From contig KV440964.1 in assembly GCA_001636495.1 (NCBI GenBank), positions 3,240,666 through 3,304,665 of the forward strand: a DNA stretch of 64,000 nt, in the 5' to 3' direction. Positions 59,993 to 64,000 of this stretch are shown here, in pieces. The number at the start of each line of letters is the position of its first letter. The stretch's first letter is position 1. The notes below the pieces were generated by a model, which did not search any database, had not been told where the DNA came from, and saw only the letters and a program-made list of their open reading frames with translations. Origin of the DNA: Sutcliffiella horikoshii (GTDB lineage: Bacteria; Bacillota; Bacilli; Bacillales; Bacillaceae_I). A program made the position numbers and the translations under genes.

Positions 59993-62068
59993 CTACTCTA
60001 ACGGAATCCTGTATTCTTTTTCTCTAAAAATATAATCATTGAAAATCTCTACAGCCTGTATCATTAAATGTGTGACATCAGATTTGACATTAACATTGAT
60101 CATTTCTATCTCAGGGTTTTCTTCTTGGTCAAACCAATCATACCCGCTTCTATTATGAATATCCAATCGTTGCCCGTTTTCATCTGAAAAGACCCAAGAA
60201 AAGTTACGCACTTTGTGATTTTGCGTTCTATTCCCTGTGAGGAGGACCTTGGTAGTAAGTCCTTCCTTCCTGGTCACTGATAGCTTGTTAAGTGTATAAC
60301 CATCCAGGTCAATGTTTAACGATTCATCAGTCGATTTTTCTATCGGGACCGTCATGGAATAGAACCCGGGTTCTTGATAATTCGCTGTCCTTATTTCAGC
60401 GGAATATTTACCACTTTCTGTTTCATTTCCTTTGACTTCCATATAGTTCTTATCCGTGTACAGCTTGGAGAAATCGATTTGAAACGGCGCTTTTTGCATG
60501 TAGTTATACATGGAGGGATACTCGATAGGAACCATGTATTCCTCCTCGTTGTTCACCAGCACTACCCCCGCAAAAACATTATGGTGACTCATTGAAAAAT
60601 GAGAATCATATTTTTGATCCGTCTTCTTCAAGTTGGTTTCAATACGCTGGATTTCTTCTTCCTTCAATCTGACATCATATGTCAACCTGCTACCGTACTT
60701 CCCTTTTTCCAGACTAATAATCTCCACTTCTATTTTGTCATCAATGACTTCTACCTGATTCAGCTCCAAGACTTCTACATCTTCCACAACTTTTTCATAG
60801 TGGATAGGTACGACTATTTTCCAGTCCCCACCCCATCCTTTTACACGTTGAAAATGAAAATGCAAGTTGAATTCACCAGGTAAGCTTTCTTCGTTCAGAG
60901 CCTTTACATAAAGACTCCGATCATCTGAACTCTCCGGGATCTTACTACTAGACAACATCTCACCAATCAAGACTGGCTTGGCGGTTTCCATCGGATATGT
61001 ATTACCTTCCTCATCCATGGCATGAACGGAAAAAAGATCATTCTCACCAAGATAATCTATATCTTTATTGTCACTAGAAACTTTGTAATGGACAAGCATT
61101 TGCAAGGGATCAACATCCACAGAAGTAATTTCGACTGAAATATCATTGCTTGTTGCCGTATAAGTTCCATCTGCCCACACATTATAAAAGCTGCCATGAT
61201 TTAAATAGTTGGAAACCATCTTCGTCCACGGGGCAATGGTAGGAATGATCACAAATCCGATCAAAAGCAGAGCCACCATCCCTCCAACAACTCCAAGTTG
61301 ATACTTCCATGAACGTATGCTGGTTGTTGGTTGTTCATACGGAGACAGTTGCTTGAGCACTTCTTCATTAAATCCCGCATCAAGCTTAGGCATTTGCAAA
61401 ACGCGCCCTAACACTAGCTCTTCCCGTTCTATCACCTCGAGGATTTCCCTGCATGCTGGGCAGAATTCCAAATGGTCCTCCACCCTTGCTCTTTGTTGGT
61501 ACAGGTCCCCGTTATGATATTGAATCAGTTCCTCTTTTTTGAGGCAACCAGCCTTTTGTTCGTGTTCTGACGTCTCCAGGACATTCATCCGCAACGACAT
61601 TCTCGCAGAAAATAAGGAATTATGGTAATCTTCCATGCTCATGTCCAAAATATCTGCAGCTTGTCTGTCATCCAACTGTGTAGATAGATAGTTTACGAGC
61701 AGGGGGAGTCTTGTTTTCAAAGGCAAAGAAAGAATTGACTCTTTCACCTTCTCGTGATGTGGATGATTAAACAGCCCCTCCTCCTTGAAGGCGCCTTCCT
61801 CCGCCTCCGATTTCACTGGTACTCCTTCTAATTCCTTCAAGATTTCCCGACAAAACCAGACAGAAAAAAACTCCGTATCTTGATAAGTATTAAGCTTCCT
61901 ATAAACATGAACAAAGCATTCTTGCGTCACTCTTTCGGCTTGCAATGAATCCCCGAACCACCATAAGGCGAGGCAATAGACCTTGTTTTTATACTTTTCG
62001 ATAATCGGTTCAAAAGCCAGAGGGTTTCCTCCCAAGACAGCAATGATATTTCCCCTCACGTCCATCAT
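59993..62068 (-). CDS. Single-chain ECF-sigma-like / zinc-finger anti-sigma / DUF4179-like membrane protein
   Basis: A 691-residue protein. Residues 18-80 resemble sigma region 2 (FEPIIEKYKNKVYCLALWWF; VTQECFVHVYRKLNTY; FFSVWFCREIL). Residues 105-162 resemble region 4 (SLPLKTRLPLLVNYLS; AADILDMSMEDY; ARMSLRMNV). Then a zinc-finger anti-sigma motif with His199, Cys203 and Cys206 (EDHLEFCPACREIL), one helix at 257-278, and about 410 outer residues of DUF4179/DUF5643 character. In most Bacillus loci these are two separate genes. Region 4 looks degenerate, so DNA binding is uncertain. The start overlaps the stop of the paralogue before it, suggesting coupled translation. Confidence 0.75.
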   Translation of the reverse strand: MMDVRGNIIAVLGGNPLAFEPIIEKYKNKVYCLALWWFGDSLQAERVTQECFVHVYRKLNTYQDTEFFSVWFCREILKELEGVPVKSEAEEGAFKEEGLFNHPHHEKVKESILSLPLKTRLPLLVNYLSTQLDDRQAADILDMSMEDYHNSLFSARMSLRMNVLETSEHEQKAGCLKKEELIQYHNGDLYQQRARVEDHLEFCPACREILEVIEREELVLGRVLQMPKLDAGFNEEVLKQLSPYEQPTTSIRSWKYQLGVVGGMVALLLIGFVIIPTIAPWTKMVSNYLNHGSFYNVWADGTYTATSNDISVEITSVDVDPLQMLVHYKVSSDNKDIDYLGENDLFSVHAMDEEGNTYPMETAKPVLIGEMLSSSKIPESSDDRSLYVKALNEESLPGEFNLHFHFQRVKGWGGDWKIVVPIHYEKVVEDVEVLELNQVEVIDDKIEVEIISLEKGKYGSRLTYDVRLKEEEIQRIETNLKKTDQKYDSHFSMSHHNVFAGVVLVNNEEEYMVPIEYPSMYNYMQKAPFQIDFSKLYTDKNYMEVKGNETESGKYSAEIRTANYQEPGFYSMTVPIEKSTDESLNIDLDGYTLNKLSVTRKEGLTTKVLLTGNRTQNHKVRNFSWVFSDENGQRLDIHNRSGYDWFDQEENPEIEMINVNVKSDVTHLMIQAVEIFNDYIFREKEYRIPLE

Positions 62069-64000
62069 TCCGATCCGCCTTCTGCTTTTTTCTCTTCTTT
62101 AAATAATGGATACTTTTCTCCCTCAAAGTCCGTGAACTGTGTAAATATGTTATCTGCTTTAATGACCAATGTTTCAGGAAAGGCAGCTTGTCCTTGTCCG
62201 TATCTTTGTCCTATGTCCACATGAAGCAATTTCTTTATTCCTTCCTTATCCCGCTCATCATAATGATACCACCCCTCAGATTGGACATATTCATCGTTTT
62301 CATCCATGAGGGTCCAGCCTATCTCGCCGCTTCGAGTATCACTTTTCCCATTGATAATCAGCTCATACTTGCTGACATCACCATAACGGTCCTTTGTTGC
62401 GACAATACTGTAATCTGTTAGTTCATAACCGTTGATATCGCCTTTCAACTCTGTACTTTCTGTTTCTTCAAGAGGAATTTCCAAAGAAAAGAATGCAGGT
62501 TCTTGGTAATAAGCTCCCATTATTTGTGCATAAAGCTCCTCCATTGGATTTTCTAGCTTCCCAGACACTTCATAATATTGATTATCCATATAATAATGGG
62601 AAAAGTGCATTTCAATCGGTTCATTTGAATCGTACATCTGCATGTTGTGAAAATAAATCGGCATTAAATAGTTTCCCTCTTTCGTTATGCCATTTAACCC
62701 AACCTGATGCCATAATTCAAACTCCTGCATTCTGTATTCCTGGTCGTGCTCTTTGAGTAGTGCCAGCAATTTATCCCTTTCTTCATCAGTACGTTTGATG
62801 TTATACCTGAATCTACTGACGTTTGTACTATAAGTAACATCCATAAATTCAATAATTATTTTATCCTCAATGTTTATTTCTTCATTCAATGCAACTGTCA
62901 CTGAAGTATCTACTACCTTGTCATATCTTATTGGGATATCGAATTTCCATGATCCAAACTTTGATTGCAGTTTAGTTATGTTTATTTTAATGTCAAATTG
63001 GTCTGGCAGGCTCTCCTTATCGTTGATATGCACTAAAAAGAAAGGCCGGTACTCCCCTTCTTTCTCCAATACCTTCCGACCGCTACGAAGATACTCCGGT
63101 GCTGTCACTTGTATCGGGTGCTCCTTACCTGTTTCATCCACTATTTTAACGGGTGTATAAGAATAGAAATCAATATCTTCATTAGAAAAATAACTGGCTT
63201 CTTCTTCCCCTTCTTTTCTGACATCATAATAGATGTACATGTAGAGGGAGTCCATCTCCACACTTGTCACTTCAAATGTTAGCTCTTTATCTGTTGCCAC
63301 ATACGTGCCTTCCAACCAAACGTTATAGATCGTGCCATGTTCCATATAGGTACTCACCATGCCCGCAATTGGCTTCAAGCTAGGCAAAATAAATACACTG
63401 AATAGAAAAATGGCACCGAGAATCCCAAGGACACTAAGCTGATATTTCCAAGTGCGGTGCTTTGGCTTCTTTGGAGTAAAGGGGATAAGTTCGTTCAGTA
63501 CTTTCTTGTTGAAAGATTCATCCAATTTAGGAAGCTCCAGGACAAAATCAAGGGAAGCTTCTTCCCTTTTAAGTCCTTCTAACACCCCCCGGCATTCAGG
63601 ACAAAATTCCAGATGGTCTTTAATTTCAACTTGTTCCTTTTCTACAAGCTTACCGTCATAGAAATCGGTCAATTCAAGCATGCTATGGCACTCGCTTTTT
63701 TTCTGATAGCTTTCGATTAGAGTGAACTGGCGGATCTGTATCCACGATTCCTTGTATCTGCCTTCAAGATCCTCTAAACTTGTTTCCAATAGATTGGAAA
63801 GGTGCTCAGAAGAAAAATGGAGAACCCTTATGAGCAGAAACTCCAACTTGGCTTTCTCAGGCAGAGAATGGAGTGCTTCCTCCATTTTAATGTAATGGGG
63901 ATTATGCATTGGCAGGTGGGTAGCAGTGGGGCCTCTTGATTCCCCTTGCTTCTGGAAAAGTGGTAGAAACTGTTCATACAACCACTCCGTAAAAAATGAT
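62065..64000 (-). CDS. Second sigma-like/anti-sigma/DUF4179-like protein, 5' end outside window
   Basis: A paralogue of the downstream protein. The frame stays open to the right edge: after the TTG at 63981 the upstream codons still read SFFTEWLYEQF, matching FFSVWFCREIL of the paralogue's region 2. So the gene starts beyond the window. Visible are the end of region 2, a region-4-like part (SLPEKAKLEFLLIRVLHFS), the zinc finger KDHLEFCPECRGVL, one membrane helix (LSVLGILGAIFLFSVFILP) and a long outer domain. It ends KKAEGGSE and overlaps the next start by four bases. Confidence 0.72.
   Translation of the reverse strand, partial: SFFTEWLYEQFLPLFQKQGESRGPTATHLPMHNPHYIKMEEALHSLPEKAKLEFLLIRVLHFSSEHLSNLLETSLEDLEGRYKESWIQIRQFTLIESYQKKSECHSMLELTDFYDGKLVEKEQVEIKDHLEFCPECRGVLEGLKREEASLDFVLELPKLDESFNKKVLNELIPFTPKKPKHRTWKYQLSVLGILGAIFLFSVFILPSLKPIAGMVSTYMEHGTIYNVWLEGTYVATDKELTFEVTSVEMDSLYMYIYYDVRKEGEEEASYFSNEDIDFYSYTPVKIVDETGKEHPIQVTAPEYLRSGRKVLEKEGEYRPFFLVHINDKESLPDQFDIKINITKLQSKFGSWKFDIPIRYDKVVDTSVTVALNEEINIEDKIIIEFMDVTYSTNVSRFRYNIKRTDEERDKLLALLKEHDQEYRMQEFELWHQVGLNGITKEGNYLMPIYFHNMQMYDSNEPIEMHFSHYYMDNQYYEVSGKLENPMEELYAQIMGAYYQEPAFFSLEIPLEETESTELKGDINGYELTDYSIVATKDRYGDVSKYELIINGKSDTRSGEIGWTLMDENDEYVQSEGWYHYDERDKEGIKKLLHVDIGQRYGQGQAAFPETLVIKADNIFTQFTDFEGEKYPLFKEEKKAEGGSE

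Follow-up and report, generated by a model that had tools for sequence, protein, structure and literature searches.

Two tandem single-chain proteins of Sutcliffiella horikoshii join a degenerate extracytoplasmic function sigma domain to a DUF4179-type anti-sigma factor

We analysed a window of 64,000 nucleotides from Sutcliffiella horikoshii (assembly GCA_001636495.1, contig KV440964.1, positions 3,240,666 to 3,304,665), the right end of which carries two tandem genes, P0001 and P0002, whose products resemble an extracytoplasmic function (ECF) sigma factor fused to a membrane-bound anti-sigma factor. The original prediction, made from the letters alone, had read in both proteins a sigma region 2-like part, a region 4-like part, an HxxxCxxC zinc finger, one membrane helix and an outer domain, and this layout is borne out by Pfam, by profile searches and by AlphaFold2 (AF2). 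The overlap of four bases between the two genes, which both lie on the minus strand, is likewise as first read (62065-62068). P0002 is truncated by the window edge, such that just the final bit of its region 2 lies inside. Retrieval of the sequence to the right of position 64000 completes P0002 at 730 amino acids from the first ATG. This ATG sits 5′ of a likely -10 element, and translation therefore probably starts some 20 codons downstream of it. The features are as follows.

59993..62068, minus strand: P0001, downstream fused protein (putative pseudo-sigma/anti-sigma), 691 amino acids; open reading frame (ORF), Pfam and NCBIfam matches, orthologues
61826..62059, minus strand: P0001 sigma-2-like domain, residues 4-81; Pfam Sigma70_r2 and SigW matches, helices in the AF2 model
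61811..61873, minus strand: P0001 equivalent of regions 2.3/2.4, residues 66-86, with W71 kept and the promoter-melting residues lost; alignments
61574..61762, minus strand: P0001 sigma-4-like domain, residues 103-165, recognition-helix residues lost; fused-protein profile, AF2/Foldseek, residue alignment
61352..61546, minus strand: P0001 zinc anti-sigma (ZAS)-like domain, residues 175-239; Pfam, profile, AF2 model, alignment
61223..61309, minus strand: P0001 single membrane helix, approximately residues 254-282; AF2 helix 254-291, hydrophobic segment in alignment
59996..61222, minus strand: P0001 outer domain, residues 283-691, mostly beta, DUF4179/DUF5643-like; Pfam, AF2 model, best Foldseek match 3fbq
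62065..64000, continuing to about 64257 in window numbering, minus strand: P0002, upstream fused paralogue, 730 amino acids from the first ATG; genome sequence beyond the window edge
63592..63690, minus strand: P0002 zinc-finger core, residues 190-222 (first to last Cys); zf-HC2 E = 3.5e-5, 24.3 bits, above the Pfam cut-off
63349..63435, minus strand: P0002 membrane helix (approximate); by alignment
62068..63348, minus strand: P0002 outer domain (approximate); DUF4179 E = 0.019, below cut-off, and alignment

Sigma70_r2 matches P0001 with an E-value of 1.7e-5 (25.0 bits against a Pfam cut-off of 24), and in the whole genome the region 2 parts of P0001 and P0002 both stand above the cut-off (37.1 and 29.0 bits) among 25 Sigma70_r2 places. 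The NCBIfam SigW model matches P0001 at E = 3.3e-15, far below its equivalog cut-off, and SigW is the best solved-structure match of residues 1-300 (E = 4.1e-8). Below the Pfam cut-off, P0001 matches DUF5643 (2.9e-6), DUF4179 (2.1e-4) and zf-HC2 (1.7e-3). The window fragment of P0002 matches zf-HC2 above the cut-off, with DUF4179 and sigma region 4 weak. A profile built from 28 of the 40 fused proteins that we found retrieves SigW (1.9e-19) and RsiW (1.2e-3), the zinc domain of the latter being the sole anti-sigma factor among its matches. The zinc ligands C175, H199, C203 and C206, together with an HLEFCP-x-CR core, are invariant in these 28 aligned proteins and the Cys-His-x3-Cys-x2-Cys pattern is present in all 40. 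No receiver domain was seen among Pfam matches up to an E-value of 5. A model of the outer part (422 residues) is mostly beta, with a predicted local distance difference test score (pLDDT) of 78.4 and a predicted template modelling score (pTM) of 0.76. Its best Foldseek match is 3fbq (E = 3.3e-5, template modelling (TM) score by target 0.51), the outer domain of the DUF4179 anti-sigma factor BAS1627 as described in PMC6066255. The zinc domain, single membrane helix and outer domain of a class I (zinc) anti-sigma factor with a DUF4179 outer domain are thus all found, the DUF4179 Pfam match lying below cut-off yet the outer-domain model best matching 3fbq.

The fusion is not a chance artefact, since an uninterrupted fused frame is present in all 18 family genomes examined and the profile built from fused proteins alone retrieves both SigW and RsiW. 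Fused proteins occur in 16/16 genomes examined of the genus and in 18/18 of the family (Sutcliffiella and two further genera), giving 40 loci, 39 of them uninterrupted, with one to five paralogues per genome. In a contig scan (18 loci) the relatives of the window locus were species of Sutcliffiella along with strains catalogued as Bacillus, and the gene families that flank it are shared by 12 to 16 of the 16 loci compared. With two candidates scored per genome, no fused frame was found outside the family at 1e-20 in 397 genomes of the order. Nor was there an uninterrupted fusion outside the family among the matches listed for 398 genomes of the class, scored in the same way; these matches crossed a stop codon or covered the sigma part alone. 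A plasmid comparison gave one weak match, at 30% coverage, to a two-gene form. In a tree of the anti-sigma part, built by a quick method that warned of long branches, all 40 fused proteins fall on one side of a branch (Shimodaira-Hasegawa-like approximate likelihood ratio test support 89), and a single fusion event followed by duplication is therefore likely. A genome of a related genus (G016) carries three fused genes in tandem (L083, 5554-12025) and two more elsewhere. In another genome (G009; L081, 7983-10034) a stop codon splits the downstream copy into 590 amino acids and a separate 87 amino acid piece, its upstream partner being uninterrupted, and in a third (G012; L082) an upstream-type fused gene stands alone at an otherwise syntenic locus.

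The same family holds the unfused form, which the original prediction had rightly given as the normal arrangement and proposed to look for. Two-gene pairs are present in 10/18 family genomes and occur within the genus itself, and in one genome (L079) such a pair immediately precedes a fused gene. At the split loci of nine genomes, a sigma gene of 186-201 amino acids overlaps at its end with an anti-sigma gene of 473-504 amino acids, and the four split anti-sigma factors that we examined all start at the zinc Cys that also opens the fused zinc domain. Fused copies persist in the 8/18 genomes that are without the nearest two-gene pair. In the window genome, no separate cognate sigma gene is adjacent to P0001 or P0002, and a query with the nearest split anti-sigma factor matched, at 1e-8, only the two fused genes. 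One genome (G011; L092, 5003-9232) carries two two-gene pairs side by side.

We aligned the 40 fused sigma parts with 12 two-gene sigma factors (10 from the family and 2 from two other genomes of the order, the pair of G006 being left out), nine other ECF sigma factors of the genome and E. coli RpoE, whose numbering is used here. Asn at position 80 is found in 12/12 two-gene sigma factors and in 0/40 fused proteins. By alignment, this position is equivalent to N88 of sigma-H, described as wedging promoter DNA open and, with I85 and W81, as forming its promoter-melting/-10 residues (PMC6411747). The W81 equivalent is kept in 36/40 fused proteins. The I85-equivalent position is V or L in all 12 split sigma factors, whereas at least 36 of the 40 fused ones have E, R, Q, T, N or H there. 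Asp at 84 is similarly lost (12/12 against 0/40). In the -35 helix, Arg at 176, which we take to have a role in -35 recognition, is present in 12/12 two-gene and 0/40 fused proteins. In region 2.2, Asp at 48 (12/12 against 1/40) and Gln at 51 (12/12 against 2/40) presumably form the core-binding signature. Region 2.2 binds the RNA polymerase clamp (PMC7406223). Residues of the fold are retained, the split consensus being kept at W73 in 36/40, F54 in 37/40 and Y58 in 34/40 fused proteins. Across positions 76-88, similarity is nearly the lowest of any 13-residue stretch (2/123 as low, itself included). Thus, of what marks a functional ECF sigma factor, the fused proteins keep the sigma-2/sigma-4 sequence and fold, and lack the promoter-melting/-10 residues, the -35 helix residues, the core-binding signature and the autoregulated promoter (below). 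That the sigma domain is degenerate whilst its fold is kept is well supported by these comparisons. An early impression of a clean deletion at region 2.4 was abandoned, the alignments showing replaced residues and then a shorter linker. A narrow regular expression for region 2.4 was also set aside as a general test; it separated 12/12 split from 0/40 fused proteins but matched only 2/9 other ECF sigma factors of the genome and not RpoE.

An autoregulated promoter is usual, though not universal, for ECF sigma factors. The strict ECF pattern TGAAAT-spacer-CGTTA lies 5′ of 11/12 two-gene loci, the twelfth being a near match by eye. Setting aside fused genes that come second in an overlapping pair leaves 28, of which 27 lack the pattern. 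An extended -10 element, TG[GT]TATA[AC]T, occurs within 160 bases upstream of 20/28 fused genes and 0/12 two-gene loci, where shuffled sequences lead one to expect about 0.01 per gene. The window copy is among the eight without it solely because its start was called on the 5′ side of the element. Judged by these motifs, nearly all fused genes have lost the ECF self-promoter pattern and most have an extended -10 of housekeeping type.

AF2 was run on P0001 residues 1-300 with an alignment of 31 rows (23 fused proteins including that of the window, 4 two-gene sigma factors and 4 two-gene anti-sigma starts), and the original prediction had proposed the same approach to see whether the zinc finger packs on regions 2 and 4. 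The resulting model (pLDDT 88.8, pTM 0.77) predicts that it does. Judged by Foldseek TM score by target, the best matches are SigW bound to RsiW (0.81-0.84), with CnrH-CnrY at 0.81; RNA polymerase-bound ECF sigma factors, 15 among the best 50 rows, score 0.30-0.40. The two lobes are therefore predicted to adopt the closed, anti-sigma-bound arrangement of the SigW/CnrH type, rather than that of anti-sigma binding in general. The original prediction had named two findings as jointly telling against its reading, namely loss of the -10-binding residues and lack of a predicted sigma-type fold; the first is found, and a sigma fold is predicted all the same.

Ratios of nonsynonymous to synonymous rates (dN/dS) place the sigma domain under purifying selection, with values for the upstream copy of 0.16, 0.17 and 0.20 against three relatives and of 0.22-0.31 among those relatives. 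We compared constraint between the two forms in the same five genomes, giving 10 genome pairs that are not independent of one another. Mean nonsynonymous difference per site (pN) in the two-gene form is 0.049 for the sigma factor, 0.085 for the zinc domain and 0.245 for the outer domain; the corresponding values for the fused downstream/upstream copies are 0.32/0.24, 0.29/0.23 and 0.21/0.22. Region 2.4 of the two-gene sigma factor is the most conserved region measured (mean pN 0.027, 21 pairs of 7 sigma factors), whilst in both fused proteins it stands at 0.25, no better than the remaining sigma domain. Divided by the synonymous difference (pS), which is near saturation, two-gene pN/pS is 0.11, 0.21 and 0.35 for sigma, zinc and outer parts against 0.48/0.39, 0.43/0.34 and 0.32/0.33 in the fused copies, that is, about 3.6-4.5 times higher for sigma and 1.6-2.1 times higher for zinc. 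Zinc pN exceeds outer pN in 10/10 pairs for the downstream copy, 6/10 for the upstream copy and 1/10 for the two-gene form. The shift in constraint thus persists after pS correction in smaller form; the downstream copy shows an inversion and the upstream copy a levelling. By these measures, constraint on the cytoplasmic parts is weaker in the fused proteins than in the two-gene form, but constraint on the outer domain is not. Such a shift would be expected of a pseudo-sigma and a zinc domain that no longer have any partner but one another. Distances of the sigma and zinc parts co-vary given the outer parts (partial correlation 0.45 for 39 of the 40 fused proteins, the interrupted copy being left out, and 0.61 for 27), and those of sigma-2 with sigma-4 do so similarly (0.37, 0.63). 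This is weak, merely supportive evidence because neighbouring stretches share history.

We tentatively read the pair as a retired, self-capped sigma/anti-sigma system, a SigW-like ECF sigma factor fused to its own DUF4179-type anti-sigma factor and now a pseudo-sigma, and put this at a little under even odds (roughly 0.46). The sequences show an ECF sigma factor of the type paired with DUF4179 anti-sigma factors joined to its own anti-sigma factor, with the sigma half turned into a pseudo-sigma, which is predicted to clasp its own zinc domain in the closed form of SigW-RsiW. The cytoplasmic half would be silent in transcription and capped from within, pseudo-sigma and anti-sigma each stabilising the fold of the other and keeping it occupied. 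Selection would chiefly maintain the outer sensor-type domain, be it as a receptor, a ligand sink or an envelope protein at the cell surface, and the fused protein would be made at a steady level, not under its own sigma factor's control.

A number of observations weigh against a retired, self-capped pair. Several anti-sigma-bound structures match the model poorly (RpoE-RseA 0.42-0.47, AlgU-MucA 0.43-0.46, SigK-RskA 0.44, BldN-RsbN 0.49), with RpoE-NepR at 0.69, and the closed arrangement may echo the presence of SigW-RsiW in AF2 training. Sigma-domain selection is weaker in the downstream copy (dN/dS 0.33 and 0.45 against two relatives, the third being saturated), reaching 0.61 for one close pair of relatives. 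The two-gene cytoplasmic parts are also lower in pS (0.46 and 0.41 against 0.63-0.67), so that the contrast in constraint shrinks after dividing. Zinc and outer parts are about equal in the upstream copy, and relaxed constraint is no proof against a partner in trans. Retained anti-sigma-contact residues of sigma-2 are not above regional background (1495/10000 random draws as high) and were dropped as evidence for a cap, and Gln51 and position 47, both changed in the fused proteins, are anti-sigma contacts (PMC7406223, Table 2). In one of the 40 proteins (L089), phmmer does not match the N-terminal part to the window sigma parts at 1e-3. Lastly, the strict ECF pattern is found in one of the 28 fused genes (L083, with an extended -10 inside the match) and a looser pattern in two.

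Four other explanations were ranked behind the self-capped pair, in the order in which they follow. The foremost is a decoy like PhyR, in which an outside signal would lead to cleavage in or near the membrane and the freed pseudo-sigma would bind the anti-sigma factor of another ECF system, releasing its true sigma factor. We regard this as rather unlikely. PhyR is likewise described as keeping an ECF fold whilst its promoter- and core-contact regions are degenerate (PMC8103513), PhyR structures do appear in the fold search, though low (E = 0.14 and above), and the gene order at L079 sets a fused gene directly downstream of a two-gene pair. However, pseudo-sigma and zinc domain diverge more than their two-gene counterparts, which is not what a surface bound to a conserved partner would show, and the nearest two-gene pair is missing from 8/18 genomes. 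Of the degenerate decoy put forward in the original prediction, the degeneration stands, Asn and Arg being lost in 40/40 with the fold kept, whilst acting as a decoy in trans is just one among several uses to which the domain might be put, and relaxed constraint argues somewhat against a conserved outside partner. A more far-reaching proposal, and an unlikely one, is a Gram-positive, membrane-bound counterpart of PhyR, its pseudo-sigma asleep on its own anti-sigma factor until freed by an envelope signal to strip anti-sigma factors from several ECF sigma factors, the one to five paralogues being tuned to different outside ligands.

It is doubtful that the protein is instead a conditional anti-sigma factor, its pseudo-sigma a removable lid that a signal opens so that the zinc domain captures a true sigma factor. 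The invariant zinc ligands and HLEFCP-x-CR core, the RsiW profile match and the predicted closed arrangement are what such a device would show, but the zinc domain is relaxed (mean pN 0.23-0.29 against 0.085) and the window genome has no sigma gene beside the fused pair. A decaying relic, in which an eroding cytoplasmic half merely serves as an anchor, ranks next and seems improbable. An N-terminal half that diverges faster in the downstream copy, the stop-interrupted copy in G009 and the single copy at the locus in G012 fit it; dN/dS below 1 in the measured pairs, 39/40 uninterrupted copies and zinc ligands invariant in 28 aligned proteins do not. Finally, the original prediction had offered a membrane-tethered, functional sigma factor freed by regulated proteolysis, as in IutY or ECF52. 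The domain order is that of the fusions described in PMC8999054 and PMC5411451, but the two-gene residue is lost at the melting Asn and the -35 Arg in 40/40 and at the core-signature positions in 39/40 and 38/40, the strict self-promoter is missing in 27/28, and the conservation of region 2.4 is gone (pN 0.027 against 0.25). On residues and promoters an active tethered sigma factor is strongly disfavoured, and we hold it to be highly improbable.

Single-chain sigma/anti-sigma proteins are already known. IutY of Pseudomonas putida and members of ECF48, ECF52 and ECF53 are described as such (PMC8999054; PMC5411451), the three ECF groups having a zinc finger and one or two membrane helices (PMC8999054). 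The likeness is a sigma factor joined to a membrane anti-sigma factor in one polypeptide. As those accounts describe it, proteolysis frees a working sigma factor from IutY, and the same is expected of the others, whereas the fused proteins here lack the promoter and core residues. Moreover, the known cases come from other bacteria and have another outer domain. The split pair of the same genus shares the order of sigma, zinc domain, membrane helix and outer domain, and differs from the fused form in its separate chains, intact sigma factor, promoter class and constrained cytoplasmic half. A DUF4179 outer part is reported for both RsiV and BAS1627 (PMC6066255), and the fused outer domain is predicted to fold like 3fbq of the latter. 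Alphaproteobacterial PhyR, like the fused proteins, has a sigma fold in which the promoter and core regions are degenerate, but it carries a receiver domain and its target, NepR, is a separate protein, whereas here the anti-sigma factor is in the same membrane-bound chain. SigW-RsiW of Bacillus subtilis provides the closest solved sigma factor by sequence and fold, yet comprises separate proteins and an active sigma factor. In the open-access literature searched, we found no account of a degenerate sigma factor fused to a DUF4179 anti-sigma factor. Whilst single-chain fusions and degenerate PhyR sigma domains are known, the combination of a dead sigma domain, DUF4179-type outer domain, promoter switch and family-wide retention appears to be new.

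These proteins appear to be a natural case in which a sigma/anti-sigma pair was fused and, judging by its residues, lost its function in transcription, yet was kept and multiplied across a bacterial family. Two-gene pairs in the same genomes provide controls for how a sigma factor is retired. Sigma mimicry outside PhyR, and the role of a DUF4179 outer domain when no sigma factor is released, are thereby opened to test. Automatic annotation of the fused proteins as sigma factors would mislead.

Two further observations concern the sequence upstream of the fused pair, to the right of the window. A small ORF of 38 amino acids on the minus strand (L002, 9016-9132), starting MLTLLFGSKKE, is conserved in 13/15 checked loci and is followed by a possible hairpin and T-run, seen by eye. 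Also by eye, the intergenic sequence at approximately 9370-9640 of L002 holds repeat-like forms of GGAAAGCGAAGC in both orientations, which are seen as well upstream of the two-gene sigma gene in L095.

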